Part shown: positions 1-64,000 of the stretch, piece by piece | How positions within the stretch are numbered: the stretch's first letter is position 1 | How the letters are laid out: every line of letters begins with the position of its first letter | DNA from: Pegea sp. RAD2-039 | Lineage: Eukaryota; Chordata; Thaliacea; Salpida; Salpidae | NCBI GenBank assembly: GCA_034620365.1 | Contig: JAQGEQ010000281.1 | Coordinates: 248,001-312,000 of the forward strand | Direction of reading: 5' to 3' | DNA: 64,000 bases | The notes under the pieces: model-generated | What the model saw: the letters and a program-made list of their open reading frames with translations, nothing else | What the model was told of the DNA's origin: nothing | The model's database searches: none | Position numbers and translations under genes: made by a program

Positions 1-1310
1 TGAAACTTGTAATATAATATTTAGCTGAAACATTTTTAAAATTAATGATATAATAAATGCTAACTTCCTTTGTTTACTGTTTTTGATTTAACAATAAAGA
101 AAACGAGCCTATAAAACAGCCATTATTATGGTGTAGAAGAAAATTACTCTAAGATAATAACATCATAAATTAAAAACGTCTTTTGCTAAGGCAAGGCAAT
201 TTTCAAAAGTTTAAAAAACTACAACACAGGTGAAATAATTAAAACTAACAACCTGAAACAATTCTTACAAGTTTAAATGATGATTTTTATAAAGTTACTC
301 TAATATACTAACGTATAACATTTGCTTCTCAACTCAAATTAAACTTTATGACAAACTGTATTGAAACCAAAATAAAAAATTAATTGAGTAATATGTTGTT
401 AATTTAAAATTAATTTCACATATTTAGTAGAGGTTTCATCTAGCATTATGAGACCTCCTGTGAAGTTGCTCTACAAATTTTGTAAACGAAATACTTGCTT
501 GGTAAGGTTGTCACATTTTATTATAGTTGGTCTTCTTTTATCCTTAAGCTAAATTATTAGTTATAATTTCATTTATAATATATTTTAATACAAAATCCAA
601 GCTTAATTTACGGACGTAGTCCTAAAATTGTAAAAAGCTGGTCAGCTTACCCACTTAAACAAACTCTTTATACAAACTAAATAAGTTAAAAAACATAGCA
701 TCAAATTTTCAAAAATTTTTTTACTTCAACGTAAAGTTGGGAGTTTAAAAAGAGTTTTTCATCCAAATATTATTCAACTTCATGAATCTATTAAAACTCC
801 AAGGGATTTAATACCTTAAACATTTGCTAAATAAGATTTTGTTTAATAATTTTATTTTGATTTTCTAATAATCTTAACTAAAATGCAAAATCTGTTTTTT
901 GTGAAGAATTTTTGCCTAACTGGTCAACTTCTGCTTGAAAACAGAGGTCCTTTTACTTAACCACTAAATTCCACATAAAAAAATGTCTCATCAACGCCAT
1001 CTATTTATGATCTCAGTAAATTTAGGTGGGATTGTTAACTTTGATTTAAAAGTAGACAATTTTTTTGTTGGAGTTTGGCCTCTCTGATCTTGAAAACCAT
1101 CTGATTGATATCAAAGTAAGTTATGAATCAGTTCTTTCAAACTGTATCTGATGTTTCCAGCTCAGGTTCTGCTTTTTGGTTGTCAAAGGTCTTGGTAAAG
1201 ATGCCATGTTACTTGTAGGTCTACGGTGTATGGCACCAGAAGTCATTCAAATCACAATTACACGGAAAAATCTGATCCCTGGAGCGATATCCTTTGATAA
1301 AGTCATTTTG
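1..1310. repeat. Block Y, partial and decayed copy (Y0)
   Basis: This stretch aligns by eye with the later Y copies, for example 34190-35520 and 42950-44280, sharing the same AT-rich lead-in and then the kinase exons. It enters the window already inside Y and stops matching at about 1285-1310, just after the subdomain IX codons, where unrelated DNA begins. It is more diverged than the other Y copies. The first 850 bases are non-coding AT-rich sequence with no gene visible. Confidence 0.85.
882..1050 (+). pseudogene. Kinase hinge/catalytic-loop exon, decayed (Y0)
   Basis: This is the homologue of the well-kept exon at 21700-21888. The LLENRGPF segment is readable, but a stop follows at once and an internal deletion removes the end of helix E and the YLH segment. 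It is the only Y copy of this exon that is broken, which gives a useful contrast to the five intact copies. Confidence 0.75.
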
Positions 1311-1331
1311 GTTTTAATGATTAACTTGTAG
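1056..1331 (+). pseudogene. Kinase activation segment, two exons around a 45-nt intron (Y0)
   Basis: The first piece (to 1115) reads TIFLLEFGLSDLENHLIDIK and resembles the DFG motif region with EFG in place of DFG. A canonical donor GTAAGT at 1116 and an acceptor TTTCCAG ending at 1160 bound a 45-nt intron. The next exon, from 1161, continues in phase and contains GLRCMAPEVIQI (MAPEVI at 1230-1247), the kinase subdomain VIII signature. Frame is lost shortly after: the DPWS codons of subdomain IX lie in another frame at about 1270-1285, and the block then breaks off. The later Y copies read MALEVI and carry two extra bases after the acceptor. The kinase assignment is firm; this piece is incomplete. 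Confidence 0.75.
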
Positions 1332-4300
1332 GTTCAAGTATTAAGTAAAAGATTTTGTATGTTTTTCAAATTGATTAAGATTTCTGTTTCCCAAATTATT
1401 AGATTTCAACAATCCACCTTGTTTATAGATGTCTTTGTTTATAAGACTACTTCAAAATTCTTGTTACTGATCTAGAGTATTACAAGATGACAATTACTTT
1501 GTGAAATGTGGTGCTATACTGCTTTCAAACGGTCAAAAATTAAGATAATTCGTAGAATCAAATTTCATAAGTAAATCACATGTGGCTTAATACCATTTTT
1601 TGTTACCTGATATTATACTAAAATCTGCTTGAAAGTAGAGTGTTGCAAACTTTGTTATTGGTGTTTTTTTAGAGGAGGTAATAGAGTTAGTAGAAAAAAT
1701 ATGATTGAAGCTAAACATTTGGTACAAGTTATCATAGTAAGCTTACTGAATCTTGTAGAACAAAAGTGCAATAAATAATAGCCTAAATAAAACCTTTAGT
1801 TTGCTTTATAGGCTAAGAAGGTTTAGTTAAAGTAATTGTTTGTATTTATACGACATATTGCCTTAATTTCTTTTACTATTTTTAAGTTACCAAGTGCTAA
1901 ATCAGATTTTACATCAACAGCCAAACCTGTAACTATAAAATATTAGTTTATATTCTCTTGAACGTTTTTTAAACTCTCAATATTTTTTTTCAATAGATTT
2001 TTCGGCTGATTCACGTTTTCACTATAAGCATACTATAAGAGAAACTTCACTATAGAAAAAGGAATAAAATTAAAAGTCGACTTATCAAATATTTGGATTT
2101 TGATTACAATTGAGCTTCTTTTTATTAATTAAAAAGGCTTAATACAGTTTGATTAAACAAAATATGCAATTTAGGAAACTATTAAATAATGAGATATTTC
2201 TTAGACTATTCTAAATTTTGCTGTTGGTGTTTTTTTAGAGGAGGAAAACTAAACGGCTCACTAAGACTTATCAATAATTAAGAGTTAAAATGATAAGATA
2301 GGAAAATGAAAAGATTGTCTTTCAAGGGGAATGAAGAAACTCAAGTTTAAACCAAAACTTGCTTTTTTCAACTAGATTTTTTTTTCAATTTTCAATTAAG
2401 TATTTTCAAAAGTTATTTAAACTTCATTTGCTATTTTATTTGAACTTACCTGTAGATATGATAACGTCTCGCTCAACTGAAATCACTGTAGTGGAAAGAG
2501 ACGATGACAACAAATAAGAAGGTAAAACAAGTTTAAAAAAGGAGAAGTTAAAATTAAAAGGAAATGTTTGTTACATTTTCTTTACGTTTTATAATTTGTT
2601 GTAGTGAATTATCAATAAAATTATTTGAAAAAAGTCATTGAAGATATTCAGTTTTTTAATTTTTTATTTTCAGTAAACTTGACTTAAATTTTATTCAATT
2701 TTTTATTTTTATCTTTTATTTAAATTTAATTTTACTCTCTTCTCTAAAATTAAAAGCTAATGCTAACTCAAAGCTTTTTTTCTTTTAACTGATAAACAAC
2801 TTTTTGTTTCATTCCTTAAATGAAGAAATAATACTTTTCCATTTCTAAAATTCCAAAGTTAAAACTGAAAATAAAAGTCAGGAAACAATAAACTATAAGA
2901 AGATTAACATTTGTTTACCAACTTTCTATCAAAATAAGTCAGTTCTATCATAACAGTTTAGTTCCTTTAAACTATCATTACAGGAAAATAGTGAAATAAT
3001 TTTTATAAAACTTTCTGTTAAACCTTTGCTAGATTGCTGCATCATTTACATGAATCATATATATGCATCATATATGCTGCATCACAGAAATATCAGTACG
3101 TGATTCGTTGAATAAATGATACAACTACAATACTACAATACTACAACTCGAAAATGAGCAAACAAGTTTTATCTTAAATGTAGGTTCTGAAAAAAGTTTC
3201 TGAAGACTTTTGTAGGACTTTTTTAGATTAAGTAATTGAAGCAATTTTACTTGTAAAACGTATTACTTTATTTAATAGTTTATTAAAATATTTTCTTAAA
3301 ACCTATGGAAGTAATCCTTCACAACTATTAAAAATTGTTCAATTTATAAATAAAATAAGGAATTGCTTTTAAATTTGTTAAACAATTAAATAGAAATCAC
3401 ATTTCAATATTTAAAATTTCTATGAATAAAACATTTTAGTAAAATTTTCGTGCTTTTAATGAATCACCTGTAAATTTAAGTAGTATGTAAAAGAGTTTTT
3501 ATCATTTTTTAAAATTGATTAAAGTCACTTTTTTCAGAATTTATTAGATTTCAACAATCCAGTTTGTTTGGAGATGCCCTTGTCTTTAAAACTACCTCAC
3601 AATTCACGTTACTGAGCTAAAATTGTACGGGATGACAATTACTTTGTGAAATGTGGTGCTATACTGCTTTCAAGCGGTTAAAAATTAAAATAATCCCCTG
3701 AAACAGACTGAATAACAAAATAATTTCTTAATTTTTTCTCGGTGAGTAAGTTCATAAGTTAATTACTAACTTAATCATAAACAGCCTAACGTGTGTATAC
3801 AGAATTTAGAGAAATTGTCTTTAGCGTTTTTAAACCGACATAAAATAGTTTGTTGTAAAATTCTGCCTAATAATTTATGTTTTCACAATAAATATGCTAC
3901 GTGAAAATTCAAGAGAAAAGTGCACTGGATTTTGTTTAAAGTTCAACTTTACATAATCTAAATAACATGACTAGCAAAAGTAGTTAGAAAAGTATTTAAA
4001 ATTAACTTAACAAATAAGCCTGCTGATTTAACTATTTGGATATTTATTAGATTTTCTTATAATGATCAAAAAGGTATAAAATATTTTGAGGAAACAAAAT
4101 ATGCTACTTAGAAAGCTAACAAATAATGAAAGAATTTTAGAAAACCTTCAATCACTTAAAGTTTAGAGTCTTTTTAAAAATAGTTGTAATTAGTCAAGAG
4201 TTTAATTTGATTTTATTATATAATTTTCTATGTAAAATTTAGTTAGGTTTAAATCTTAGCTAATATCAAGGTTTGACATCATTTAAAACCAAACGAGAAG

Positions 4301-5034
4301 TTGAATAAGCTTAAAAATATAGTTTTAAATAAGTTTTTATTTTTAACCTATCAATTAGTTTACCCCTTTACTGACAGACGTGTTAAGGTTTTTTTTAATT
4401 CATATTCTCTACTGTAACTCGCTCTTAAAAAGAGAAACAATGTATATTTTGAACAGATGAATAAGGTTAATTGTGATGAAAGTTTGCATTTTTATATTTC
4501 GGCTGATTAAAGCATTTTAACCATGAAAGCGTAAAATGATGAAACATGTAAAAATAAGTGTCTTTAAAATAAAAAGCAGAAACTCAAGTTCAGATAAAAA
4601 CTTGCTTTTTGAAATAGATTATTTTCATTTTTCATTTAAGTGTTTTTAGAAGGTATTTAAATTTGATTTGAACTTACCAAAAGAAAAGAGAAAGTTTTGT
4701 TGAAATTAATGTATCGAATTAGATTAAGACAACAAATAAGAAAATAATTAAAATAAGCTTAAACTAAGGAGAAAAATTGTGATTTATTTAAATTAAATAT
4801 TTTGTTGTGGCAAGTAATACATCGAATTTGCAAATAAGATGCGGTTAAAAAAGGCTTTGTTTTTTAATTTATGATATTACCGCAAATTTGTTTAATAGTT
4901 AAGATAAATAATCTTCACAGTAAAATAAATTTGAAACTGTTGTCCACTCATGGAAAAATAATTTGTAAAATTTGCGTTTTCAGATACCTCTTATAATAGA
5001 ATGGTAACAAAGTTTTCAAAATTGTTCATTTACA
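1311..5034. other. Unique AT-rich DNA with a diverged internal duplication
   Basis: This sequence is not shared with X or Y. Two parts resemble each other at a spacing of about 2.15 kb: 1384-1555 with 3535-3700 (both end with a shared ACAATTACTTTGTGAAATGT-type stretch), 2085-2200 with 4015-4130, and 2340-2460 with 4570-4680. A short motif around TTTTTTTAGAGGAGG occurs twice, at about 1665 and 2232. No open frame of note, RNA gene or transposon end was seen. Confidence 0.6.
3049..3146. repeat. Low-complexity CATATATG and ACAATACT runs
   Basis: Bases 3049-3085 alternate ATCATATAT/GCATCA units. Bases 3120-3146 hold about three copies of ACAATACT. The two are probably independent simple-sequence expansions; no function is implied. 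Confidence 0.7.
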
Positions 5035-6035
5035 ATTACAGAGAACACAGATTCATCTTTTCTGTTTTACAGACAAAAAGGTCTATTAGTAAATAGAAAA
5101 CTGGTAATTACATTATTATTTATTTTAAACCTATTATTAACACAAATACCTAATTCCATCTAAAAGTGCCATTAACTAATAAAAAGAAATTATGCAATTA
5201 ATCATTATAGTAGCCCGTTTAAGTTGATTGTGATTTGTTTTTCTACATCATATGCTCAAACAATTTTTTGTCGCTAGCCGAAAGAATAACTATATTGATA
5301 TATATAGGAAGTTTATGAAAATTTATGGTTGCGTTATTAAAATTATGAATGACAACGTTTAATATTAAAAAATGATTACTAAAGGTAATTTACTAAAGAT
5401 AAATAAATGTGTTTACTAAATGCAAAACTCATCAATCACAAAATCTATTCCTAAAACAAGGAAGCTTATTTTACTTTTAATTTAAAAACTAAATAATTAC
5501 TTAGTTAATTTATTTATATCAATAAAAGCGAAGGAGGGTGCCTGAAGAGAGCACTTCCCGCTAACATATATTTTCACAAATAATATCAACTAATTTAGAA
5601 ATAAGGAATAAAAAGGTCTAACACATGGTATTTCAGTAGTCCTCAAAGCATATAAGATTGAATAATTAAATAGGATGTTAATAATATAGTAACTAGAAAA
5701 ATCACAAGTGTTCGCAAAAGATTTATTTATAACTTCTTATTTTTTCTTTGGACAACGCGAGTGATTGATATATGACAGTGTCTGATGTCAGATGGCTCCA
5801 ATTACTAATTGTATAGTATAAGAAAAGCATTTGCTCTGAGTAACCTACCAAGTGATATGGGTTTATCAACATGTAATGGGTGTGGTATGAGCTGATATAA
5901 GCTGAGAGTAAGACTAATGGAAAATAAATCATTGAATTTAATGTCAATTAAATTGTGGATAATTTAAAAAGTATGAAAGAAGTCATATCTAATCCATCAT
6001 GTTTTTTAACTGTCTAAAGTGAAGAAGCTGAGACG

Positions 6036-6233
6036 TTGTTTATAACTATCGTATTTAATGTTAAGTTTCCTGCAAACCAATGTCGTAAATGTTGCCTTAA
6101 CAGATTCGATATTTTTGATATTACTGACTTGTTATGGCATCCATGCACTGACATCACATTCAAAATTAGACATACGTACAATTTGAAAAGACTGTTGAGA
6201 CATTATAGATCCTTAGAGTTTAAAGTGATTTAA
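6036..6233 (+). other. Cys-rich ORF of block Xa, copy 1 (altered)
   Basis: This is the homologue of the 74-codon ORF at 24454-24678. The core with NQCRKCCLNRFDIFDI is kept, but the 5' part is out of frame and the 3' part has changed (TYNLKRLLRHYRSLEFKVI). No domain was recognised. It may be an exon fragment or non-coding. Confidence 0.35.
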
Positions 6234-7371
6234 TAAAGTAGACGAAGTTGCTTGATTTTGCAAAGATTTTGGAAACATAAACATAAGATTTAAAGTCATA
6301 TGATAGGGTAATGCCAAGGTCTAGGACCGAACGTATTCAAATTAAATCCGTTGATGGAATATTGATTTAAAGAATTTTTGCTGGCTTACGGCAGAAAGTT
6401 ACAAGTTCAGCATTTGTAAGCTAGGTTCAGAGCTGCCAATTCGTAGATCAGTTTTCTACAGTGTGTGGTATAGTTTGAAGTTTTGAAGAATATATATAAT
6501 AGAATATGAAAATTTTGAATTTAAACACTATTAGTTTTCACCAAGAAATATAAAATAAACTAAGGTAGAAGTTTCTAGGAATCTTTTTTATTGGTAGAAA
6601 TTAAAAAAAGACAATTTAGTATAAGCACGTGGGTTGTAGGGAACTAGCTTTAAACTTGATATTTATAGTAAAATTTAAACTACGGAAATTATTTAATGAG
6701 CATTTTTATACATAAATTAGTCTTTTACTACTTAAAATTTGGATACAAGAGCTAATTGACCTTTTATTTTCATCTTATCTCAAGGTTATTTTGTAATAAA
6801 TTAAAAATTATATAAGGTTTAGCTTTATAATAATTAAACTTACTTTTTATTTAACTATTTAAATATTTTAATTTTTTACTTTTGTTTAAATGTGTAAATT
6901 AAATTTTTGATATAAAATATTAGATTTAGTAATGTTTTGCTTGGTATTAATCTTATTAGAAGATTGTATTAACAACATACTAACAACAATACTAACAACA
7001 TATTAAATAATAAATACTATTAAATTTTATTAGAAATAGGATTAATATTGAAGGACTAATGATAAATACTATAAAACTTATTTTCTTATTGAAAATTTAT
7101 TTTAATTTTTTAAACAATTATTTATTATTTTTATAATGATCATATATTATGTTACTAATTTATAATGTTAAACTATAATAATATTATTCATTCTTATTGT
7201 AAACATTAATTAAACTATTGTTACAGAATCTTAACAAAATGATCCAGTGTAGTTCCTATAAGACCAATATTTCAAATTTTTTAATCAATTGTAATTACTA
7301 AAGTTTACATATTTAAAGTAATCATAATTTCAACTCATGTCAAAATTTTTGTAAACATTTTTTACTTTATA

Positions 7372-7560
7372 GGAAGCAATTAACTTGTAGGATTTTGAAA
7401 GAAAAGTCATCATTGGACTTGAACTCTCTCCCAGGTAACTTTTCTATTACCTAAGCCTTGGATCAAAAAAGAAGCAGATCACTCAGATGAAGCCCAACCT
7501 CAACAAGAATTTTTTAAATTTCTGGAGGTTAGTTGTAAAATATTGCTATAAAAATCAGCC
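7372..7560 (+). other. Exon-like piece of Xa with conserved splice donors
   Basis: Here the AT-rich DNA gives way to more balanced sequence. After TTATAG, the frame DFERKVIIGLELSP runs into CCCAG/GTAACT. A second coding-like run then ends at GAG/GTTAGT (donor at 7528). All Xa copies keep both sites, and Xb copies keep the second (for example at 13201). The product is unknown; it may be an N-terminal exon of the kinase gene. Confidence 0.35.
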
Positions 7561-8175
7561 AACTCTTTGTCAAATAAAGTTTGACCACTTTAACTAACAA
7601 GGGTTTCTTTAAGTTGCTGTTTTACTATATACTCTTATACTCACACTACTAGCAAATTTGAATTAATATTTTATTCTGAAAATTTTTGAAACTACAGAAA
7701 TATTTGAAATGCCATTTCGGAGAGATAAAAAAAACTATGATCAAAACACCTTTTTTCAAATTTTGAGAAATATTTAAATATCTCATGAAAAGCTAATAGA
7801 GTCGATTTATCAACATGATAGGTAAATGTAATTGACGGTCAAAACTCAAACGAAGCAAATAACTTACTTAAGGTTGTTGTTATGACAACGTACAATTATT
7901 AGAAACTACTAAAAGTGTAGTTTAAGAGCCACTAATTTTGACTTAAATTTGACTCGATAGTTCATTAGATTCCTATTAGAAATTTTGTATATATGATCAA
8001 TCCTAATACTAATCGAAAGTAAATAGAAGAAACTTTTGAACAGCAGCTCTGCAAATTTATATTAAGTTGTGGATTAGAATAATTCCTTTTTCCTATCCTA
8101 ATCTTTGACTTTACTAATAATTAGACATTTATTTCGCAAAATTATGAAATATTTTTTTTGACCTTTATTAATCTC

Positions 8176-8412
8176 TTAAATTTCAAATTTTAGAAGATTT
8201 GACAACAAAAGATTTTTTCTTAAACTTGCAACTGTTGATTTCTTTATAATACAAATGTTCTTCAGTAGTCTCACTTGATGATTCAGTAATGAATTCATTC
8301 TTGCTAGCAAGTGATTGGCTGTTGGCGGGTGCAGCGGTGTAGATGTCCTCTGACGTGGAAATTCTCCATAAAAAAAATTTAAAAAAAATTCAAAAACTGA
8401 TCTTTTAGTCAA
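8176..8412 (-). other. Antisense ORF of block Xa, copy 1
   Basis: A 78-codon open frame on the reverse strand opens with TTG rather than ATG. It reads MTKRSVFEFFLNFFYGEFPR and onward to LLSNLLKFEI. The alternative reverse frame, open in copies 3 and 8, has a more protein-like Ser/Glu-rich composition (for example STSEDIYTAAPANSQS) and is entered here only across a length change in the poly-T tract. Five Xa copies keep this region. No family was recognised. Confidence 0.35.
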
Positions 8413-8453
8413 CTTCTAAGATCTTGAGAGTAATATTTGACAAATATCTACAA

Positions 8454-8582
8454 ATGCTGAAGACGTTTATTATAATCGACTGCACTCTGCAACAAATAAT
8501 CTCATCACTTGCATATGAACTAGTTTCTGATGATCAAAATGTTTCAAACACTCGTTATTATTTTATGAGCAAACTAAGCTAG
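8454..8582 (+). other. 42-codon ATG ORF upstream of kinase remnant, Xa copy 1
   Basis: The frame opens with ATG and reads MLKTFIIIDCTLQQIISSLA, then YELVSDDQNVSNTRYY, ending FMSKLS. It is open here and in copy 3 (18211-18339), but copies 4, 6 and 8 have a TAG within RY/FMG. Composition looks coding-like. No domain is known; it could be a short exon. Confidence 0.35.
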
Positions 8583-8684
8583 TTAAGTACATACTTGTAC
8601 GTTACAATTTGCTTCAAAAATTTAGAATCATCATAATCGCACTTCAGTCGTCTGACTACTAAATGAAACTTGATACGTTTACAG

Positions 8685-9155
8685 ATCATTTTTTTGATGA
8701 GATGTCTAATTGGTGTCAATCTAATCTACCTTCTTTCGAACATCATGAAAGACTACCTCACACAAGAGTTGATGATTTTTGAAGCAGTTGAAGAAATATG
8801 ACGGGATGATGGTATTTGTTCGTTTAACAAAAGATTTTCATTTGTTGATGAGAAATTAGAGAAATTCTCAAAAAGGGATCAGTGAACTTCTTGTATATCA
8901 ATTATAAGAACATATCTTTGGTAGGTTAATAATTGGTGACCAAGTGACATGACACCTGATTTTCTGACATTCACAGTGAAGGATTTTATCAGGAACTTAC
9001 TGTTTGTCGATCCCAATTATAAATTGACAGATTCATCAAACTGCAACTGCGTCACAAACAGGTTGTTAGATTTCTTTTTTCACTCCACATTTATTGCGGC
9101 AATGCCATCACTGACCAAAGTTCATCTCAGCGAACTTCCCGACTCCTTTGGCTGA
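8685..9155 (+). pseudogene. Kinase C-lobe remnant, subdomains IX-XI (Xa copy 1)
   Basis: The piece follows a TTTACAG acceptor. Subdomain IX-like residues (YDGMMVFVRLTKDF in sister copies) are followed by FGRLIIGDQVT, which ends in a TGA overlapping the next ATG (ATGA at 8949-8952). The next frame (8949-9155) gives TPDFLTFTVKDFIRNLLFVD and then PNYKLT, the kinase XI signature LL..DP..R.TA. It then runs into a splice-like CACAAACAG/GT junction and tail sequence joined by deletion (IHLSELPDSFG, stop). The frame breaks make it non-functional. Confidence 0.75.
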
Positions 9156-9208
9156 TGGAAGAATCGTCCTGATGACGTCATCAGCGTGTTTGGTCAGCTG
9201 TGAAGTGA

Positions 9209-9253
9209 TTCTAATAATAATAATTTCTAATAATAATTTCTAATAATAATTTC
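9209..9253. repeat. TTCTAATAATAAT short tandem repeat
   Basis: There are about three head-to-tail copies of a 13-base unit. It is found only in this X copy and marks the junction where the upstream acidic-exon segment was lost. Confidence 0.85.
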
Positions 9254-9772
9254 AAAGCCCTTCCAAATCTCGTCAGATGAAGAAGAGAACTCTAACATAG
9301 AAGATGAGTCGATAGAAGAATCAGTAAGTTGAAAAGCCACCACTAGATGTCAGTCTAATTTATGACGTCATCAGAGTGAAACGAGAGTAATGAAAGGTGA
9401 AGTCATCAGAACTACAATCGCGTCACGAACGGTTTATTTGATTTCTCTTTGCCCTGCACATTCAACAATCTTGTCTTTTCAGTCACTTCAGATGACGTCA
9501 TCACGAAATTATCCCAAACCATTGGAAGCCATAAGGAGAAACCGATGCAATGTTCCAAAACATTACGTGAGCGGTTGACAAGTCTGCTGCAACATCTAAT
9601 GTCACTCAACGTGGCAATGACGTCACTGACGAAGATTGACGGATGACTGCGGGTGCTCCCGTGGGGCGAATCACTTGAGGATTTCATTATTTCCAGTCAA
9701 AGCGAGAAGATGAGCAAAAGTCCTTTCACTTCCGGTTGGAGAACTGATCAAAACAAATCTTTTACTGTTTAA
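9254..9772 (+). pseudogene. Kinase tail exons (Xa copy 1)
   Basis: The remnant of the acidic exon reads ISSDEEENSNIEDESIEES and ends at a GTAAGTT donor at 9324. A further exon starts at ATG 9390 (MKGEVIRTTIASR). The short intron then ends with TTTTCAG at 9482. The last exon gives VTSDDVITKLSQTIGS and later SLTKIDG, then a TGA where other copies read IDGGLR. It resumes with VLPWGESLEDF and stops at 9770-9772. The intron joins out of phase here because one base of the donor exon is missing. Confidence 0.65.
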
Positions 9773-12700
9773 AAGAGGCGAGAACATGTGTGCCTGTACT
9801 GACGTCATCGTTTTAAATCCCGATTTGTTTATGTTGTATTCGCGCAAATTTTGTTGATAATGGTGAAGTCAGAAAAACGTGACAAGAGCTCTGTCACTTT
9901 AGTCTTTTTTACATTGATGTCATCGTTTCATATTTTATTTTGTTGAATTCCCAGGTTTCCTATCCAAAATGCCTTTCCTCTATTTATTTATCTTTTTTAT
10001 AAAGATATCATTGTTTTAGATTTTTCGATGACGAGAGTTTCTTAATTATTTTTGACATCATCAGTACCTGGTTTGATGGTTTCACTAATAAGTTGTTTCA
10101 TTGTGACGTTTGCAGATGATTTAATGACATCATCCGTTTTGATACTTCACTGTTCTCAGCTGTAGATTTCTGTTTTATGTTCATCATTGCTAATTTTGTA
10201 TCTATTTTTTTAGAATGAAAACAAATCTATTTTTGTGAATGTTAATCTTTCTAACTAACTAAAATTGTTTCAACAATAACTTCATTATTTCAACCTCTGG
10301 GACTTGAATATCTATCATTAAATCCGACGTTTATAATATTTAAGATTTATTTTTTCGAATTTTATGTTACTAAGCTATTGTTGTCTAAATTAACTATTAT
10401 TTTGTAATTTGTAGTGGTTCATCTTCTTCTAGCGTTTATAAATAAGGTGATATATAAAAGTATATTGTCACGGATGAAGAATTTATTCATCTTTAATATT
10501 TTAACAAGATCTATCTGTAAATAAAAAACTGGTAATTACATTACTAATTATTTCAAACCTGATAGTAAGACAAATACCTGTTTGGATGGAAAACTGCTAA
10601 TAGTTTCATTATCCTAAAAATAAATTTAATCAATAGTAGTTGGTTTAAAGTGGTTTTGACCTGTTCTTTTGTTTTTATCTCGTTGAATCTGGGTTGGAAA
10701 GATTTTCACGTCGTAACAAGAAAGCATTTTACTTTATTTGGTCAAAACATTTCTTGTCGCTCGCCGAAAGAAAAACTTTATAGATACATTTAGAAAATTT
10801 GTAAAAAGTTATAGCTGCGTTGTTAAAATCTAGATTATCAGCGCTTAATATTAAAACATCATTGCAAGAAAAAATTAACTTTGTTTACAAAATGCAAAAC
10901 TTATTCTATGGCAAATGTGGCAAAAATTATTTATTTGTTTACAAAGATTATGCGTAATTATTGATAAAACTGGTCAGTTTACTTTTAACGTACAAACTAA
11001 ATGATTAATCAGATAATTTATTCATTTCAATAAATGTACAGGAAGGTTCATGATGAGCAAGTCCCGTTAACACACATTCTCAATAATAACATGAATTGAG
11101 TTAGAAATATAGAAAGAAACAGATGTAACACATGACATTTTAGTAGTTTTCAAAGCATATAACAGTGGATAATTACATATAATTTTAATAAACTAAAATG
11201 GAGAAGTCACAGTTTAGAAATGGTACTGTTGTCAGGAATAAAAAATTTTAGCTTGTGCCTGAGCAACATGAGTGATTCTGACATGACAACATCTGATGGC
11301 AGCTGGTTCCATATAATAATTGTGCGGTAAGAGAAAAAATTCAATATGATTAATGTACCAGGTGATATGGGCTTATTAAGATGTAATGTGTGTTGTCTGA
11401 GTTGACATAAGTCGAAGTAAGGATTAATTGAAAAGAAATCATCAAACTGAAGGCTAAATCAATTGTTGATAATTTAAAAAATAGGAATAAAGTCGTGTGT
11501 AATCCGTCGAATTTCAGAAATATCTCAATTTAAGAAGCTAACACCAAGTTTGAAAAAATTGTATTTAATATTAAGTTTGCTGCATACGAATCTCGCAATT
11601 GTTGCTTAAAAAGACTCATCTGTTTGATATTACTAAGTTGCTTTAGTATCCATGCACTAACATTGTATCCAAGACGTGCATACTATTTGAAAACACTGTT
11701 GAAGGATTATAAATCCTTAGAGATTAACGTAAGATTATTAAAGTAAACAATCTTGGTTGATATAGCTAAGATTTTCGGAAATATAATTGTTGCATCTAAA
11801 GTCAGATGATATGGTAATGCAAACGTCTAGAAAAATTGGTCGAACATTGGTTCAAGAAAATTTCAGTCGGTCAAATGAGAAAGTCTTATGTTCAGACTTT
11901 GTAGGCTGAATTTTTGCTGCCAGTTTGTGGATTATTTTTCTACAGTGCGTACAGCGGTTTGAAGTTTTGAAAGTTTTTAAGATAATAGCTTGGTATTATC
12001 TGCATACACACACCAACAGTGATTATTAACTTTAAAAAAAATCACAAATTCTGTAAAGAATATCTAACTATTTACAAATATTTCAAAATGAAATTTTTTT
12101 TTATACTATAAGTTTTTTAGAAAAACTAACTACAGTAGATGTTACTAGGATCCTTTTGTATTGTTAGAAATTAAAAAAAGACAATTTAGTACAAGCACGT
12201 GGGTTGTAATCCTGTAGCTTTAATATTGATATTTGTATTATTATGTAAATTAAAACAACTACTTTAAGCAAGATCTTTTTATATAATTTACTCTTCTATT
12301 AGTTAAAGTTTGGATAAAACAGCTAATTGACATTTAACTTTTACTTTATCTCAAGATTATTTTGTATTAAATTTAAAACTAAATAAAGTTGAACTTAAAA
12401 AGAATTAATCTTACTTTTTATATAACTAGTTAACTAATTGAATTTTGTACTTTTATATATATTTGCCTGCTAAATATTCAACTATAAATTTATAGTTTAA
12501 GTGAAGTTTTTGTTGTTTTTAATCTTATTATTCTAAACTTGAAATTAACAAGAATAATTTCTTTTTAAATTTATTAGAAAAAAATTACTTTTAAGAGACT
12601 AATGATAAAGTAAAAAAAATAATTTGTTATGTAAAAAATAACTTAGATATTTAAAAAAATATTTTACAAATTTGTATTGTTTAGCTGTTATAATTCCAAT

Positions 12701-18169: not shown

Positions 18170-18210
18170 CTTCTAAGATCTTGAGAGTAATATTTGACAA
18201 ATATCTACAA

Positions 18211-52721: not shown

Positions 52722-52910
52722 ATGCAGAATCTATATTTTGTGACGAATTTATGCAAAATTGGTAAACTAAAACCCTTGCTTGAAAACAGAGGTCCTTTTA
52801 TTGAAACCACTACCCGCCACAAGAGAAAATGTCTCATTAATGCCATCGTCTATCTACATCTAAAGGGTCACTCTATTTTTGATCTCAATAAATTTAGGTG
52901 GGATTGTTAA
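52722..52910 (+). pseudogene. Kinase hinge-to-catalytic-loop exon (Y5)
   Basis: The protein is identical to Y2 and Y3 and differs in DNA by one silent change (ATT for ATC in LINA). Confidence 0.75.
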
Positions 52911-52929
52911 CTTTGATTTAAAAGTAAAC

Positions 52930-53486: not shown

Positions 53487-53583
53487 AAGCAATGATAGAT
53501 GAAGTCGTCAAACTGCAACCACATTACAAACGGCTTGTTCAATTTCTTTTTTCTTAGCACATTTAAAAATATTGTCTTTTCAG

Positions 53584-53872
53584 TCACTTCGATGACGTCA
53601 CCACGACAAACCCCCAAACCACCGGAAGCTATAAGCAGAAGTCGATGCAATGTTCCAAAACATTACGTGAGCAGTTTACAAGCACACAGTAACATCTAAT
53701 GTCATTCAACGTGACAATGACGTCACTGACGAAGATTGATGGAGGACTGCGCGCGCTCTCGTGTGGCGAATCATTTGAAGATTTCAACTTTTCGAAGCAA
53801 AGTGAGAACATGAGTGAAAGTCTTTTCACTTCCGGTCGGAAAACTGATCAAAATATCGTTTTTACTGTTTAA
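53584..53872 (+). pseudogene. Kinase C-terminal tail, one stop (Y5)
   Basis: This last-exon counterpart of 22561-22849 has a TAA in place of the second Gln of STQQ and a Ser for Pro in ALSCGES. It otherwise reads to VFTV, TAA at 53870-53872. Confidence 0.6.
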
Positions 53873-55462
53873 ATGGTGCGGGAACGCGCGTGCCTGTAAT
53901 GACGTCATCGTTTTAAAACCCAACTGGTTTTTGTTTTATTCGCGCATGACGAGTGTTTCTTAATTATTTTTGACATCATTAGTAGATGGTTTGATGGTTT
54001 CAGCAACAAGTTGTATCTTTGTGACTTTCCAGCTGACCAAATGCCATCATTAGTTTCGATACGACACTGCTTTCGATAGTAGTCTTTTGTTTTTGGTACA
54101 TACTTTTGATTGCTGTGTCCCATAATTTTTATTTAGTTGTAAACGAATGGATTTTTGTAAGCTAATCTTTTTAACTTTCTCAAATTGTTTCAACCTCTGG
54201 GACGTGAGTTTCTATCTTCATATCAGACGTATTATTTGTTATAATTTAAATGTGAAAATAAAATAAAAATTTCCTCTAAAATTTTAGAATTTTTTCTCGA
54301 ATTGTAGGTTAGTAATTTAATGTTATGTAAAATGACTATTATTTTGTAATGTGGAGTTGTTCATCGTATTCCTGTTCATCTTGTTCGATATTGTAGTTTA
54401 ATTTTGATCGAAAGGTTTTAAATATGGTGATTTACAGAAGCAAATTGTCATGGAAGAAGAATTTGTTCATCGTTAAAGTTTTAACAAGAGCTATCAGTAA
54501 ATAGCAATCTTGTAATTATATTATTCTTTGTTTTAAACCTAATAATAACACAAATACCTGTTTCGATCTAAAATTGGCGTTTATCTAAATACAAAATGAA
54601 TAAATAGTAGTTGGTTGCAATTGATTATGACATGTTTAATTTTATAATTATAAATTCACATATAAGATGTTTTTCGTTTGTATCACCATGAGGAAGCATT
54701 CCACTTTATTTGGTCAAAACATTTCTTGTCCTTAGCCGAATAAAACAGTTAATGTATATATTGAAAATTTGTGAAAAGCTCTGGTTGCGTTGTTACAATC
54801 TAGATAATCAACGCTTAATATTAAAAAATCATTGCAACAAAAAAATAAATATCTTTACAAAATTCAAAACTTATTCTATGATACAAATGTGTAAAATTAT
54901 TTATCTCTTTAAAATATAATTCGTAATTACTAATACAACTGGTTGGTTTTCTTTTAACATAAAAACTAAATGATTAATCAGTTAATTTATTTATTCTAAT
55001 AATTGTACTGGAATGTGCCTGGAGAGCGTAACTCCTGTTACCACACATTCTCACAAATTATATGTATTGAGTTAGCAATATAGAAAGAAAAAGATGTAAC
55101 ACGTGACATTTTAGGAGTTTGCAAAGCATAAACAGTGGATATATACTAAGAATTATAAAACATAAAAGTGGAAAATCACAGTTTAGAAATAATACCGTTG
55201 GCAAGAATATAAAATTTTAGATTCTACCTGAATAACACGAGTGATTCTGACATGACAACATCTGATGGCAGCTGGTTCCAAGAAATAATTATTCAGTAAG
55301 AGAAAAAATTCAATATAATAAATGTACCAGGTGATATGGGCTCATTTAGATGTAATGTGTGTCGCCTCAGATGTTATAGCTTGAGAGAAAGACTAATGGA
55401 AAATAAATCATTGAATTTAAGGTCAATTAAATTGTGGATAATTTAAAAATATTAATTAGGTC

Positions 55463-55687
55463 GTGTTTAATCCTCTATGTTTCTTTACTATCTATAGTGA
55501 AGAAGCTGAGACGATGTTTATAAGTATCGTATGTAATGTTAAGTTTCCTGCAAACCAATGTCGTAAATGTTGCCTTAACAGATTCGATATTTTTTATATC
55601 ATTGATTTGTTATGGCATCCATGCACTGACACCTCATTCAAGAATTGGATGTACGTACAATTTGAAAAGATTTTTGAGATATTATAG
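55463..55687 (+). other. Cys-rich ORF of block Xa, copy 8
   Basis: The 74-codon frame carries the DIFYIID variant also found in copy 6, with VQFEKIFEIL at the end. The 320-base deletion begins about 100 bases downstream, leaving the ORF untouched. Confidence 0.4.
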
Positions 55688-57439
55688 ATCCTTAGAGTTT
55701 AAAGTGATTTAATAAAGTAGACGAAGTTGCTTGATTTTGCTAAGATTTTGGAAATATAAACATGCTATTTAAAGTCATATGATAGGGTCATGTTTGTTTT
55801 CACAAAGAAAACTAAACTAAGGTAGAAGTTTCTAGGAATCTTTTTTTTTTGGCAGCAATTAAAAAAAGACAATTTAGTATAAGTACGTGTGTTGTAGGGA
55901 ACTAACCTTAAACTTGATATTTATAGTAAAATGTAAACTACGGAAATTATTTAATGAACATTTTTATACATAAATTAGTCTTTTATTACTTAAAATTTGG
56001 ATACAAGAGCTAATTGACCTTTTATTTTCATCTTATCTCAAGATTATTTTGTAATAAATTAAAAATTTTATAAGGTTTAGCTTTAGAATAATTAAACTTA
56101 CTTTTTATTTAACTATTTAAATATTTTAATTTTTTACTTTTGTTTAAATGTGTAAATTAAATTTTTGATATAAAATATTAATTTTAGTAATTTTTTGCTT
56201 GGTATTAATCTTATTAGAAGATTGTATTAACAACATACTAACAAGAATACTAACAACATATTAAATAATAAATACTATTAAATTTTATTAGAAATAGGAT
56301 TAATTTTGAAGGACTAATGATAAATACTATAAAACTTATTGTCTTATTGAAAATATATTTTAATTTTGTAAACAATTATTTATTATTTTTATAATAATCA
56401 TATATTATGTTACTAATTTATATAGTTAAACTTTAATAATATTATTCATTCTTATTTTAAACATTAATTAAACTATTGTTACAGAATCTTAACAAAATGA
56501 TCCAGTGTAGTTCCTATAAGACCAATATTTCAAATTTTTTAATCAATTGTAATTACTAAAGTTTACATATTTAAAGTAATCATAATTTCAACTCATGTCA
56601 AAATTTTTGTAAATATTTTTTACTTTATAGGAAGCAATTAACTTGTAGGATTTTGAAAGAAAAGTCATCATTGGACTTGAACTCTCTCCCAGGTAACTTT
56701 TCTATTACCTAAGCCTTGAATCAAAAAAGAAGCAGATCACTCAGATGAAGCCCAACCTCAACAAGAATTTTTTAAATTTCTGGAGGTTAGTTGTAAAATA
56801 TTGCTATAAAAATCAGCCAACTCTTTGTCAAATAAAATTTGACCACTTTAACTAATAAGGGTTTCTTTAAGTTGCTGTTTTACTATATACTCTTGTACTC
56901 ACACTAATAGCAAATTTGAATTAATATTTTATTCTGAGAATTTTTGAAACTACAGAAATATTTGAAATGCCATTTCGGAGAGATAAAAAAACTATGATCA
57001 AAACTCCTTTTTTCAAATTTTGAGAACTATTTAAATATTTAATGAAAAGCTAACTGAGTCGATTAATCAACATGATAGGTAAATGTAATTGACGTTCAAA
57101 ACTCAAACGAAGCAAATAACTTACTTAAGGTTGTTGTTATGACAACTTACAATTATTAGAAACTACTAAAAGTGTAGTTAAAGAGCCACTAATTTTGACT
57201 TAAATTTGACTCGATAGTTCATTAGATTCCTATTAGTAATTTTGTATATATGATCAATCCTAATACTAATCGAAAGTAAATAGAAGAAACTTTTGAACAG
57301 CAGCTCTGCAAATTTATATTAAGTTGTGGATTAGAATAATTCCTTTTTCCTATCCTAATCTTTGACTTTACTAATAATTAGACATTTATTTCGCAAAATT
57401 ATGAAAGATTTTTTTTGACCTTTATTAATCTCTTAAATT

Positions 57440-57667
57440 TCAAATTTTAAAAGATTTGTCAACAAAAGATTTTTCAAACTTGCAACTGTTGATTTCTTTA
57501 TAATACAAATGTTCTTCAGTAATCTCGCTTGATGTTTCAGTAATGAATTCATTCTTGCTAGCGACTGATTGGTTGTTGGCGGGTGCAGCGGTGTAGATGT
57601 CCTCTGACGTAGAAATTCTCCATAAAAAGAAATTAAAAAAAAATTCAAAAACTGATCTTTTAGTCAA
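57440..57667 (-). other. Antisense ORF of block Xa, copy 8, Ser/Glu-rich frame
   Basis: The poly-T tract is of a length that puts MTKRSVFEFFFNFFLWRIS in frame with TSEDIYTAAPANNQSVASKN and EFITETSSEITEEHLYYKE. A three-base loss in the Lys stretch keeps the frame (CKFEKSF for CKFKKKSF). Confidence 0.4.
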
Positions 57668-57939
57668 CTTCTAAGATCTTGAGAGTAATATTTGACAAAT
57701 ATCTACAAATGCTGAAGACGTTTAATATAATCGACTGCATTCTGCAACAAATAATCTCATCACTTGCATATGAACTAGTTTTTGATGATCAAAATGTTTC
57801 AAACACTCGTTATTAGTTTATGGGCAAACTAAACTAGTTAAGTACATACTTGTACGTTACAATTTGCTTCAAAAATTTAGAATCATCATAATCGCACTTC
57901 AGTCGTCTGACTACTAAATGAAACTTGATACGTTTACAG

Positions 57940-58409
57940 ATCATTTTTTTGATGAGATGTCTAATTGGTGTCAATCTAATCTACCTTCATTTGAACATCA
58001 TGAAAGACTACCTCACACAAGAGTTGATGATTGTGAAGCAGTTGAAGAAATATGACGGGATGATGGTATTTGTTCGTTTAACAAAAGATTTTCATTTGTT
58101 GATGAGAAATAAGAGAAATTCTCAAGAAGGGATCAGTGAACTTCTTGTATATCAATTATAAGAACATATCTTTGGTAGGTTAATAATTGGTGACCAAGTG
58201 ACATGAGACCTGATTTTCTGACATTCACAGTGAAGGATTTTATCAGGAACTTACTGTTTGTCGATCCCAATTATAAATTGACAGATTCATCAAACTGCAA
58301 CTGCGTCACAAACAGGTTGTTAGATTTCTTTTTTCACTCCACATTTAATGCAGCAATGACATCACTGACCAAAATTCATCTCAGCGAACTTCCCGACTCC
58401 TTTGGCTGA
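57940..58409 (+). pseudogene. Kinase C-lobe remnant, subdomains IX-XI (copy 8)
   Basis: The IX-X frame runs to a TAA after LVYQL. The XI frame 58203-58409 opens MRPDFLTF (Arg for Thr) and keeps NLLFVDPNYKLT. It shows what copy 4 looked like before its 165-base deletion. Confidence 0.75.
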
Positions 58410-58939
58410 TGGAAGAATCGTCCTGATGACGTCATCAGAAGTTCGTTCAGCTGTGAAGTGATTCTAAGATAATTTTTCTCAAATCTGGAATCAAGAAGTC
58501 AACTGGCTTCGTTAACCAACCGTTTGTTGGTCCAATTTAGTGGACGGCAAGTTAAAGGCAAGTGGTATTCTCGATGTGGCCCAGAAAACGACTAGATTTG
58601 TTCACTAAGACGTTAACACAGCATTTTAAACGTGATTTTTTGACTTGCACTTTTAGCTACCTATCATACAAGTAGGATCAATCCGAATTACCACCTCACA
58701 TAACTTTAACAAATCTAGAACGCTTGAATCACCAGCCTGGGGCAATACTCCTGCAAGCACCCCACTTCTAACTACCCCTGTACTATTAAACACAATGATT
58801 TTAAGGCATCTTCGGAATCTCGTCAGATGAAGAAAAGATCTCTAACATATAAGATGAGTCGATAAAAGAATCAGTAAGTTGAAAAGCGACCACTAGGTGT
58901 CAGTCTAATTGATTACATCATCAGAGTGAAACGACAGCG

Positions 58940-59322
58940 ATGAAAGTTGAAGTCATCAAAACCGTAATCGTGTCACAAACAGGTTTTTTTATTTCTCTTT
59001 ACCTAGCGCATTCTACAATCTTGTCTTTTCAGTCACTTCAGATAACGATATCACGGAAAACTCCCAAACCACCGGAAGTTATAAGCAGAAGCCGATGCAG
59101 TGTTCCAAAACATTACGTTAGCAGTTTACAAGCACACAGCAACATCTAACGTTATTCAACGTGACAATAACGTCACTGACCAAGATTGATGGAGGACTGC
59201 GAGCGCTCCCGTGTGGCGAATCACTTGAAGATTTCAACATTTCGAAGCAAAGTGAGAACATGAGTGAAAGTCTGTTAACTTCCGGTTGGAGAACTGATCA
59301 AAATATCGTTCTTACTGTTTAA
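58940..59322 (+). pseudogene. Kinase tail, spliced frame with a single stop (copy 8)
   Basis: The same structure as 28049-28431, including the shared TAG after TLR. The intron begins GTTTTTTTATTTC. It ends at TAA 59320-59322. Confidence 0.65.
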
Positions 59323-62300
59323 ATGGTGCGGGAACGCGCGTGCCTGTAATGACGTCATCGTTTTAAAACCCAACTGGTTTATGTCTTATTCGCGCATGAC
59401 GAAAGTTTCTTAATTATTTTTGACATCATCAGTAGATGGTTTGATGGTTTCAGCAACAAGTTGTATCTTTGTGACGTTTCCAGCTGACCAAATGCCATCA
59501 TTAGTTTAGATACGACACTGCTTTCGATAATAGTCTTTTGTTTTTGGTACATACTTTTGATTGCTGTATCCTATAATTTTTATTTAGTTGTAAACGAATG
59601 GATTTTTGTAAGCTAATCTTTTTAACTTTCTCAAATTGTTTCAACCTCTGGGACGTGAATTTCTATCTTCATATCAGACTTATTATTTGTTATAATTTAA
59701 ATGTGAAAATAAAATAAATATTCCCTCTAAAATTTTAGAATTTTTTCTCGAATTGTAGGTTAGTAATTTAATGTTATGTAAAATGACTATTATTTTGTAA
59801 TGTGGAGTTGTTCATCGTATTCCTGTTCATCTTGTTCGAGATTGTTGTTTAATTTTGATCGAAAGGTTATAAATAAGGTGACTTATAGAAGTAAATTGAC
59901 ACGAAAGAAGAATTTGTTCATCTTTAAAGTTTTAACAAGATCTATCAGTAAATAGCAATCTTGTAATTATATTATTATTAGTTTTAAACCTAATAGTAAC
60001 ACATACACCTGTTTCGATCGAAAATTGGCTTTAATCTAAATACAAAATGAATCTATAGCAGTAGGATTAAATTGGTTGTGACATGTTTAATTTTATAATT
60101 ATAAATTCACATATAAGATGTTTTTCGTTCGTATCACCCTGAGGAAGCATTCCACTTTATTCGGTCAAAACATTTCTTGTCCTTAGCCAAATTAAACAGT
60201 TAATGTATATATTGAAAATTTGTGAAAAGCTCTGGTTGCGTTGTTACAATCAAGATAATCAACCCTTAATATTAAAAAATCATTGCAACAAAAAAATAAA
60301 TTTCTTTACAAAATTCAAAACTTATTCTACCATACAAATGTAGCAAAAATTATTAATCTCTTTAAAATATAATTCGTAATTACTAATACAACTGGTTGGT
60401 TTTCTTTTAACATAAAAACTAAATGATTAATCAGTTAATTTATTTATTCTAATAATTGTACTGGAATGTGCCTGGAGAGCGTAACTCCCGTTACCACTTA
60501 TTCTCACAAATTATATGTATTGAGTTAGCAATATAGAAAGAAAAAGATGTAACACGTGACATTTTAGTAGTTTGCAAAGCATAAACAGTGGATATATACT
60601 AAGAATTATAAAACATAAAAGTGGAAAAATCACAGTTTAGAAATAATACCGTTGGCAAGAATATAAAATTTTAGATTTACCTGAATAACACGAGTGATTC
60701 TGACATGACAACATCTGATGGCAGCTGGTTCCATATAATAATTGTGCGGTAAGAGAAAAAATTCAATATTATTAATGTACCAGGTGATATGGGCTTATTA
60801 AGATGTAATGTGTGTTGTCTGAGTTGACATAAGTCGAAGTAAGGATTAATTCAAAAGAAATCATCAAACTGAAGGCTAAATAAATTGTTGATAATTTAAA
60901 AAATAGGAATAAAGTCGTGTGTAATCCGTCGAATTTCAGAAATATCTCAATTTAAGAAGCTAACACCAAGTTTGAAAAAATTGTATTTAATATTAAGTTT
61001 GCTGCATACGAGTCTCGCAACTGTTGCTTAAAAAGACTCATTTGTTTGATATCACTAAGTTGCTTTAGTATCCATGCACTAACATTATATCCAAGACGTG
61101 CATACTATTTGAAAACACTGTTGAAGGATTATAAATCCTTAGAGATTAACGTAAGATTATTATGGTATACAATCTTGCTTGATTTCGCTAAGATTTTCGG
61201 AAATATAATTGAGGCATCTAAAGTCAGATGATATGGTAATGCAAACGTCTAGAAAAGAGTTGTCGAACATTGGTTCAAGGAAATTTCAGCCGGTCTAAAG
61301 AGACAGTTTTATGTTCAGAATTTGTAGGCTGAATTTTTGCTGCCAGTTCATGGATTATTTTTCTACAGTGCGTACAGCGGTTTGAAGTTTTGAAAGTTTT
61401 AAGATAATGGCTTGGTATTATCTGCATACACACACCAACAGAAATTATTAACTTAAAAAAAAAATCACAAGTTCTGTAAAGAATAACTAACTATTTACAT
61501 ATAACTCAAAATGAAAATTTTTTATTTTAATACTATAAGTTTTTTAGAAAAACTAACTACAGTAGATGTTACTAGGAACCTTTTGTATTGTTAGAAATTA
61601 AAAAAAAGACAATTTAGTACAAGCACCTGGGTTGTAATCCTGTAGCTTTAATATTGATATTTGTATTATTATGTAAATTAAAACAACTACTTTAAGCAAG
61701 ATCTTTTTATATAATTTACTCTTCTATTAGTTAAAGTTTGGATAAAACAGCTAATTGACTTTTAACTTTTACTTTATCTCAAGATTATTTTGTATTAAAT
61801 TTAAAACTAAATAAAGTTGAACTTAAAAAGAATTAATCTTACTTTTTATATAACTAGTTAACTAATTGAAATTTGTACTTTTATATATATTTGCCTGCTA
61901 AATATTCAACTATAAATTTATAGTTTAAGTGAAGTTTTTGTTGTTTTTAATCTTATTATTCTAAACTTGAAATTAACAAGAATAATTTCTTTTTAAATTT
62001 ATTAGAAAAAAATTACTTTTAAGAGACTAATGATAAAGTAAAAAAAATAATTTGTTATGTAAAAAATAACTTAGATATTTAAAAAATTATTTTACAACTC
62101 TGTATTGTTTAGTTGTTATAATTCCAATTTAGAAAATATTATACTTAAAAAACATGATTTATCGGTGTGACATATTTAGAAAATAATCTTAGTAAATTAT
62201 AATAAATCATAATTTCAAACTGAACTGTTAAGTAGTCTTTTTTATTAAATTTCATTAAGAATAAGCAATTTAAAAAATTTTCTATATTCTTTAAGTAGAT

Positions 62301-63024
62301 ACAAAAATGTTTTTTCACAGAGTGCATCAAAAGATATAATTATGGGATATATCAACTCTTTGACAATCAATTGAATATTGGAAATTTTTCAAGAAGTTGG
62401 AATAACTAAATTTTATAAAAGGCTAGAATTTCAAGACATGTTAATTTATATTCATGGCATACAGAAATATTGTAAGCATAACTTACCAAACAAGAAGTAT
62501 TAAATTCTGAAGATTTTGAAATAAAAGTCATTATTAGATTTTCTATTACATGAGCCTTGGATCACAAATGGGGCAAGTTTTTCAGGTGAAGCCCAACATC
62601 AAAAAGAGTTTGTAGATTTCTAAAGGTTAGTGCTAAAATATTGATGTTTAAATCCGCCACATCTTTGTCAAATTTCGTTTGGTCGTTAAAGCACCTCATC
62701 TGGCTTCTCTAAATGATTTTTTTACTATAAGATAACTTTGTTAATCGCAACATTAACATATTTTTATCTTTATTGTACTCCATATATTACTCAAACTAGT
62801 CATAGACAAAGTATTATTTAGGAGTGCTACAAAAAACTTTGATGAAAACGTCTTGATTCAACTTTTTTCAAAGCTTAGTTGATGTACACAACCTAGTAAA
62901 TAGTTGCTGTCAATTTAGTTTATAAAATTAAAAGTTGCTGAAATTTGTGCAGGGTAATTACAATCTGTGTGTCCAGAGATCAAGAATAAAGTATGAAACA
63001 ATGAATCACGAAGAGAAATAATAA

Positions 63025-63201
63025 TTGATTCCTGTTGCCAAGCTGTTTGGAGATGCTACTGGTAAGATGGTCGTGATGGAAACTGCAACTGCGTCACAAA
63101 TTCAGGTGTTTGTCAACAATAAAAAAAAACCTGTCTTTTCAGTCATTTCTGATGACGTCATCACAAATAACTCCCTAATCACTGGAGGTAGCAGAAACTG
63201 A
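63025..63201 (+). pseudogene. Xb tail ORF, 58 codons (copy 9)
   Basis: The third same-length copy (compare 13599 and 32137). Here CAGGTGTTT retains a donor-like GT after ASQIQ, so both spliced and unspliced readings are possible; the unspliced one gives VFVNNKKKPVFSVISDDV. Confidence 0.5.
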
Positions 63202-63559
63202 CGCAAAGTCCCAAAACATCACGTGAACGGTTGACAACTCTGCAGCAGCATCTGAGGTCTCTCAACGTTGCAATGATGTCACTAACCAAAATTGATGGAG
63301 GACTGCGAGCCGAGGCGAGAGACGACATCTGCGCGTTTGTTCAGCTGTGAGGCGATTCTGACCATATTTAATTGAAAACAGGCATCAAGAAATCAACTGG
63401 CTTCGTCGATCAACTATTTGATTTAGTTCAATTGACGGCAAGTCGTATTCTCGATGTGTTCCTGAAAACGACGAGGTATAATCATTAAAACGTTAACACT
63501 GCGTTTTCAACACCCCTTTTTCGTCTTTATACAAGTAGGAACAATCAAAATTGCCACAT

Positions 63560-64000
63560 CACATAACTTTCAAAAGATCGGGAACGTTTGATTTGCAAGC
63601 TCTCGTGTCGGCACTAATACCACTGCAAGCACCCCGCTTTTAATGATCCATGCATTTCCTGGAAAACAATGATTTCAAAACAATTCCCAATCTCGTCAGA
63701 TGAAGAGGAGAACTCTAACAAAAGAGATTAGTCGAGAAAAGAATCAGTAAGTTGAAAAGCCACCACTAGATGTCAGTCTAATTGATTACGTCATCAGAAT
63801 GAAACGAGAACGATGAAAGCCAAAGTCATCGAAACTGCAACTGCGTCACAAATGGGTTCTTCGATTTTTCTTTGCCTAGCACATTCAACAATCTTGTCTA
63901 TTCAGTCACTTCAGATGACGTCATCGCTAAAACTTCTAAATCAACGGAAGTGGACAGCAGGAAACGATGCAAAGTTCCAAAACATTACATGTGCGGTTGA
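63560..64000 (+). pseudogene. Kinase acidic exon and tail, decayed and cut by window end (copy 9)
   Basis: ERLICKLSCRH is followed by TAA, then CKHPAFNDPCISWKTMISK and SSDEEENSNKRD. The tail reads MKAKVIETATASQM, intron with TATTCAG, VTSDDVIAK. It is the counterpart of 32690-33111. Confidence 0.55.

Follow-up and report, generated by a model that had tools for sequence, protein, structure and literature searches.

A 64,000-nucleotide stretch of the genome of the salp Pegea sp. RAD2-039 (assembly GCA_034620365.1, contig JAQGEQ010000281.1, hereafter C50, positions 248001-312000; the window) lies within a complex tandem array made from gene fragments, in which homologous units on the same strand adjoin at one site and can be traced to a locus on another contig, C1. 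The best explanation, to which we assign a probability of roughly 0.8, is an array of pseudogene origin that expanded through tandem duplication combined with exchange over long distances. The assembly holds 105,744,746 bases in 387 contigs, and C50 (644,471 bases) was read at 1-210000, in the window and at 320001-330000, with 210-248 kb and 312-320 kb covered by search hits and short loci. Strong homology to the window begins at about C50:58 kb and stops at 329,815, and hits also fall in C50:210-248 and 312-320 kb, so that the array extends over about 270 kb. The original prediction, made from the letters of the window, was a two-block (X/Y) amplicon of nine X and six Y copies in one orientation that filled almost the whole window. 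Mapping of 11 window-derived modules, with X equated to the retrotransposon-bearing block and Y to the kinase-bearing block, returned nine X retrotransposon places and six Y 5′ places, all on the plus strand, with 54,450 of 64,000 window bases covered; it found no minus-strand copy of these modules within the window, and self-BLAST of the window gave at least 127 pairs of at least 300 bases, with every listed pair on the plus strand. The copy numbers and orientation were thus correct, and the array does cover the entire window, but it extends well beyond, to approximately C50:58,000-329,815. The first reading overlooked the identity of the blocks, which are fragments of an inactivated STK33-helicase locus.

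The parent locus is matched by kinase pieces from the window. A 73-residue open piece of Y resembles the protein kinase domain at 6.9e-5, short of Pfam's own cut-off, and has 28 places in the whole genome, comprising 21 on C50, one on contig C51, one at C1:4364576-4364779 (69%) and five weak ones. A second kinase piece has 69 places, including one at C1:4364026-4364133 (64%) and one on C51. Outside C50 and C51, the C1 matches are by far the best places of the window kinase pieces, and the C1 locus (C1:4361501-4368500, L031) is the only strong relative. Its kinase exons, the edges of which were set by hand, are open and have their catalytic motifs in place (HRD, DFG and APE). Three of them clear the Pfam kinase cut-off, and one has STK33 as its top PDB hit (1.5e-32), followed by the CaMK1G chain (3e-19). 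Tail to tail with the kinase gene lies a helicase gene (DEAD 9.7e-41, Helicase_C 5.1e-26 and a CTE_SPB4 end at 4.8e-17) with DDX18 as its closest PDB chain; it may correspond to DDX31/DBP7, but is called simply the helicase here. Comparison of the C1 locus with the C50 DNA read gave 237 BLAST pieces at 67-90% identity, 236 of them on the plus strand. Two pieces fall beyond the array, namely the sole minus piece (C50:72-133) and a plus piece (21374-21435), and overall identity of the array to C1 is mostly 70-80%. These matches indicate that the array units probably derive from the intact STK33-type kinase and DEAD-box helicase locus at C1:4.36 Mb. Among the array open reading frame (ORF) pieces tried against Pfam, no family rose above cut-off, kinase traces aside.

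A typical X unit runs from an exon-1 piece through exon-6/7, helicase, exon-7 and 3′ pieces to the helicase end, and a typical Y unit from exons 3-7 through the 3′ piece to the helicase end. The two blocks are not independent, since each finishes in a paralogous version of one kinase-gene 3′ module. When joints were tallied between consecutive C1 pieces no more than 60 bases apart in C50 beyond 70 kb, with C1-locus positions binned by 10, the same breakpoints recurred: 4990>6880 (n = 30), 6890>4470 (n = 21), 4520>4580 (n = 20), 4860>4900 (n = 19), 4490>4650 (n = 12), 4990>6560 (n = 8) and 4980>3930 (n = 7). The backward joints would be traces of tandem duplications and the forward joints deletions.

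The state of the kinase exons dates the loss of function relative to the amplification. We compared 19 Y copies, 18 from C50 and one from C51. One identical single-base insertion is present in exon 5 of all 18 copies that keep this exon, and at the HRD position of C1 these copies read NFD (17 copies) or NFN (one). Exon 6 carries identical frame-breaking deletions of 1, 7, 2 and 1 bases in 16 of 16 copies keeping it, and its donor is GT in none of the 15 copies with letters there. Because the exon-5 and exon-6 frame breaks are common to all compared copies, the kinase appears to have been broken before amplification, and the presence of the lesions in the C51 copy as well points to one broken ancestor. 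A lesion at the exon-5 splice acceptor was not counted: in the alignment AG is off the C1 position in every copy, but an AG lies a few bases upstream. As read, the copies would encode no kinase.

The X units contain additional material. Their retrotransposon module (window 15178-16212) is dispersed: with 40 of 2945 initial candidates scored, it was located at 15 positions spread over 12 other contigs, at 77-78% identity. It resembles DNA on C50, to the left of the array, that stands beside degraded endonuclease and reverse-transcriptase frames, and on account of this resemblance we take it to be a putative 3′ piece of a truncated retrotransposon lacking long terminal repeats (non-LTR), inserted opposite to the array direction. 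Among the same 40 scored candidates this 1 kb piece is the only part of the X query that matches other contigs; no scored place covers the rest of the query outside C50, a result that does not in itself establish absence. For the Y 5′ part a genome-wide search in which every candidate was scored (24/24) returned 24 places, all of them on C50 at the sensitivity used. This restriction, together with the retrotransposon piece as the only X segment matched on other contigs among the 40 of 2945 candidates scored, led us to reject the reading of the array as a transposable element family. A simple satellite was likewise rejected, since Tandem Repeats Finder (period up to 500) reports just 21 short AT-rich rows in the window. 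A bacterial or viral reading was rejected because the window lacks a transfer RNA, any Rfam match at gathering score and any ORF of 150 amino acids, its longest stop-to-stop frame being 122 amino acids. In the left flank, L013:2149-4599 (plus strand) holds a non-LTR retrotransposon whose endonuclease and reverse-transcriptase frames are split by a stop codon.

The original prediction attributed the array to repeated unequal exchange, citing the same-strand arrangement, sister pairs and patchy deletions, and put the difference between copies at a few percent. The same-strand arrangement, patchy deletions and recurrent junctions are borne out. Divergence of a few percent holds within subfamilies: the closest X pairs are 92-98% alike by self-BLAST, and window 27517-33110 and 58407-63998 are 97.7% alike. 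Between subfamilies identity is about 65-90%, dropping to about 65% at the lowest. Sister pairs support repeated unequal exchange only in a modified sense. For 51 end modules above the length filter in the C50 DNA read (modules failing the filter were dropped before counting), divergence is flat with distance (Mantel rho 0.0008; 423 of 999 permutations equal or higher), and the nearest relative is the adjacent copy in only one of 51 cases and lies at a median distance of 117 kb. Nearest relatives among these modules differ by 0-6.8%, and two pairs are identical. At a larger scale, 231 same-strand pairs of at least 2.5 kb were detected, up to about 240 kb apart, and the longest of high identity are blocks of several units; the top one spans 12,755 bases at 96.0% with its members 189 kb apart, and the second 11,590 bases at 97.9%, 181 kb apart. 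Because divergence is unrelated to distance, exchange between neighbours is not the whole story, and unequal exchange survives in altered form: long-range misaligned exchange, block duplication or conversion fits the data better than stepwise neighbour exchange. That divergence does not follow distance is a property of the array both useful and open to checking.

These observations suggest the following course of events. A segment comprising the 3′ portion of a kinase gene of STK33 type, together with the DEAD-box helicase gene that converges on it, would have been copied from a C1-like locus to C50, where it lost kinase function and acquired the truncated retrotransposon piece and other AT-rich DNA. 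Early tandem duplications, marked by two recurrent joints that run backward with respect to C1, may have followed, although the order of events is itself a reconstruction. Later growth would have involved duplication of blocks several units long and exchange or conversion between distant copies on the same strand, as the absent distance effect and the long blocks of high identity lead us to infer, to yield about 270 kb of mosaic units. The array may thus illustrate a route by which a small gene segment becomes a long irregular tandem array, through gene loss, early duplications with recurrent joints, retrotransposon uptake and long-range block exchange, with an intact relative still readable elsewhere.

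Several points weigh against this reconstruction. Microhomology at 10 joints was not above chance (random share at least 0.367 at each joint, in a test that divergence weakens). No source of the other AT-rich unit DNA was found among the 40 of 2945 candidates scored in the X body search. Exon 4 is open in 14 of 19 copies, five exon-4 frames give low ratios of replacement to silent polymorphism (pN/pS, 0.36-0.47) in a pooled scan, and just 11 changes in 14 copies stand behind the count that speaks for neutrality. That count took the 14 main-group copies of the 19, with the diverged group and C51 (five copies) omitted, and divided the 11 changes into 2 silent and 9 replacement where 23% silent is expected. 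The pooled scan of 68 window frames, with values given for frames having at least three copies, returned pN/pS mostly of 0.5-1.1 (range 0.26-1.67), and other low values occur at frames 44681 (0.42) and 20103 (0.49) and at two frames (0.26) that lie out of register with the inferred kinase frame. The low exon-4 ratios were not taken as selection because other frames dip too and the event count is neutral; we prefer the event count because the pooled scan counts shared changes repeatedly and gave 0.26 outside the inferred kinase frame. Exon 4, the best-kept exon, varies neutrally with no firm sign of purifying selection in this small count. A functional kinase gene cluster or coding array was rejected on the frame breaks shared by the copies in the DNA read (18/18 and 16/16) together with the neutral event count, and the array is most likely passive repetitive DNA maintained by recombination, decaying and not a working gene cluster.

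Complex tandem arrays and segmental duplications generally show head-to-tail units, subfamilies, recurrent joints and block duplications. The present array shares all four features and differs in its irregular order and lack of a fixed period. It belongs to the known class of pseudogene-derived tandem arrays, and in the literature cited here the nearest published kind is that of the Drosophila Y-linked kinase-gene repeats, namely PCKR and Su(Ste), derived from CK2-beta-tes, and Lhk, derived from SRPK (PMC8794474, PMC7874207). In these accounts, too, a kinase-related gene was moved and amplified, and PCKR and Su(Ste) are also broken. The Su(Ste) unit is described as combining a frameshifted gene part with a defective transposon and with AT-rich DNA specific to the Y (PMC7874207); in the salp, the genes are STK33 and a helicase, a long interspersed nuclear element (LINE) piece takes the place of hoppel, and the unit order is shuffled. 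Copy-number-variable satellite blocks of some hundreds of kb on otherwise normal contigs are described for Brachionus asplanchnoidis (PMC8447722). They resemble the array as large tandem-repeat tracts, but according to that description they are mainly satellite DNA of raised GC, in contrast to the kilobase mosaics of dead genes seen here. Literature searches on STK33 tandem or pseudogene arrays returned no related paper.

The likeness to Su(Ste) raises the possibility that the array is a source of small RNAs, similar to PIWI-interacting RNAs, directed against STK33 or the helicase. The shared parts (AT-rich DNA of the array, repeats of a broken kinase gene and a piece of a defective transposon) would suit such a role, as would 14 exact stretches of at least 21 nucleotides common to the array and the C1 locus, some overlapping and the longest 29. 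Overall identity to C1 is nevertheless mostly 70-80%, and the plus strand bears STK33 in sense and the helicase in antisense orientation. We regard this explanation as quite improbable, and prefer that of passive, pseudogene-derived repetitive DNA.

A second arrangement exists in the assembly, since an array edge on C51 is joined to DNA that is found array-free in C53. C51:290631-293157 is 97% alike to C50:327489-330000, so that C51 has just the right edge of the array, and the DNA to the left of C51:290631 equals C53 up to C53:9810 (99.9% over 810 bases and, rounded, 100% over 6,600 bases). The shared segments are C51:284001-290630 and C53:3181-9810, which part at one point: beyond it C51 continues as array edge and C53 has local repeats of its own, seen in C53:9811-17000, which shows no match to the C50 DNA read. 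This configuration would fit an ampliconic region that is limited to one sex, or is dispensable in some other way and limited to certain haplotypes, and the confinement of all 24 Y 5′ places to one contig fits the same idea. A short left-flank query (C50:50001-58500) likewise found no second full copy in the genome; the first left-flank query ends in a dispersed repeat (39 of 2926 candidates scored). Yet C51 could represent another locus or an artificial join, and to the left of the join a single piece of about 80 bases (two places) is all that its DNA read shares with the C50 DNA read, left flank included. C51 is accordingly either a haplotype without most of the array, a different locus or a misjoin, and we consider haplotype limitation of the array unlikely, though less so than a small-RNA role. 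A possible array-poor arrangement makes presence/absence variation testable. STK33 is a sperm-related kinase. As an independent system resembling Su(Ste), the dead STK33-helicase array, with its LINE piece in the X units, might supply germline small RNAs against this kinase or be a remnant of genetic conflict, and be nearly absent in the C51 arrangement; we think this very improbable.

The assembly itself could have produced the array if a smaller repeat had been inflated through misjoined reads. The 6.6 kb shared by C51 and C53, a 98.4% inverted repeat in the first 21.5 kb of C50 and the two identical end-module pairs are doubtful spots of the kind this would leave. Most copies, on the other hand, differ and have indels of their own, and the array is embedded in a contig of 644 kb, flanked on its left by DNA with a PP2C exon. 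Misjoined reads of a single repeat would not yield nearest end modules 0-6.8% apart and subfamilies as much as about 35% apart; we think such an origin very unlikely, and growth by duplication and exchange in the genome remains the explanation we favor.

All parts of the window lie on the plus strand. Two stretches had been predicted to be unique, and neither is. The first (1300..5050) is low-copy array DNA: its part at 2000-5000 recurs at C50:162940-165902 (92%), and from 2303 on it lies within an 11.6 kb pair at C50:68868/250303 (97.9%). The second (44813..45937) likewise has relatives, with 44557-45946 being 89% alike to C50:328460-329815, where the array ends on the right, and with further copies in C50. 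The window opens with a diverged Y copy (1..1286), 92% alike to the main Y in its 5′ part and 85% in its kinase part, which shares the exon-5 lesion (row Y248710). X copy 1 (5052..9883) comprises the retrotransposon module at 5505-6489, X body at 6492-8523, STK33 exon-1 and exon-6/7 pieces at 8525-8797 and 8807-9034, and end module at 9267-9755. X copy 2 (10028..13869, retrotransposon module 11014-12013) belongs to a diverged subfamily, being 87% alike to 28505-32406 and about 72% to 22925-25649, and is followed by a truncated Y copy (13879..14624) delimited by self-BLAST and module mapping. The main types are represented by X copy 3 (14624..19868), with retrotransposon module 15178-16212, body 16213-18280, STK33 pieces 18282-18553 and 18563-18790, helicase piece 18877-19252 and end module 19307-19795, and by the adjoining Y copy (19900..22834), in which the C50-only 5′ part (19900-21540) precedes broken kinase exons (21545-22418) and the end module (22419-22834).

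Further along, X copy 4 (23408..28419, retrotransposon module 23972-25003) terminates in a paralogous end module, and X copy 5 (28505..33804, module 29545-30546), of a diverged subfamily, shows a shuffled arrangement of helicase, kinase and end-module pieces. Module mapping and lesion comparison place three more Y copies at 33823..36212, 42063..44812 and 50922..53860. X copy 6 (36783..41954) has its retrotransposon module at 37326-38358; X copy 7 (46117..50816), the most diverged, retains one of 72% identity at 46425-47276 and contains nested end-module duplications. In X copy 8 (54430..59310) the module is cut short (54982-55792) ahead of a body at 55789-57778, and X copy 9 (59883..64000, module 60435-61435), again of a diverged subfamily, continues past the window end.

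At the start of C50, positions 1-7799 and 13699-21506 form an inverted repeat with 7.8 kb arms that are 98.4% alike, either a natural palindrome or an assembly fold-back, and several smaller inverted pairs lie in the first 24 kb. The PP2C exon of the array left flank is at L013:7952-8812 (minus strand, 7.6e-64). The palindrome TGACGTCA occurs 16 times in the 7 kb C1 locus (0.10 expected), 49 times in the window (0.51 expected) and twice in the 58 kb C50 left flank (0.20 expected).

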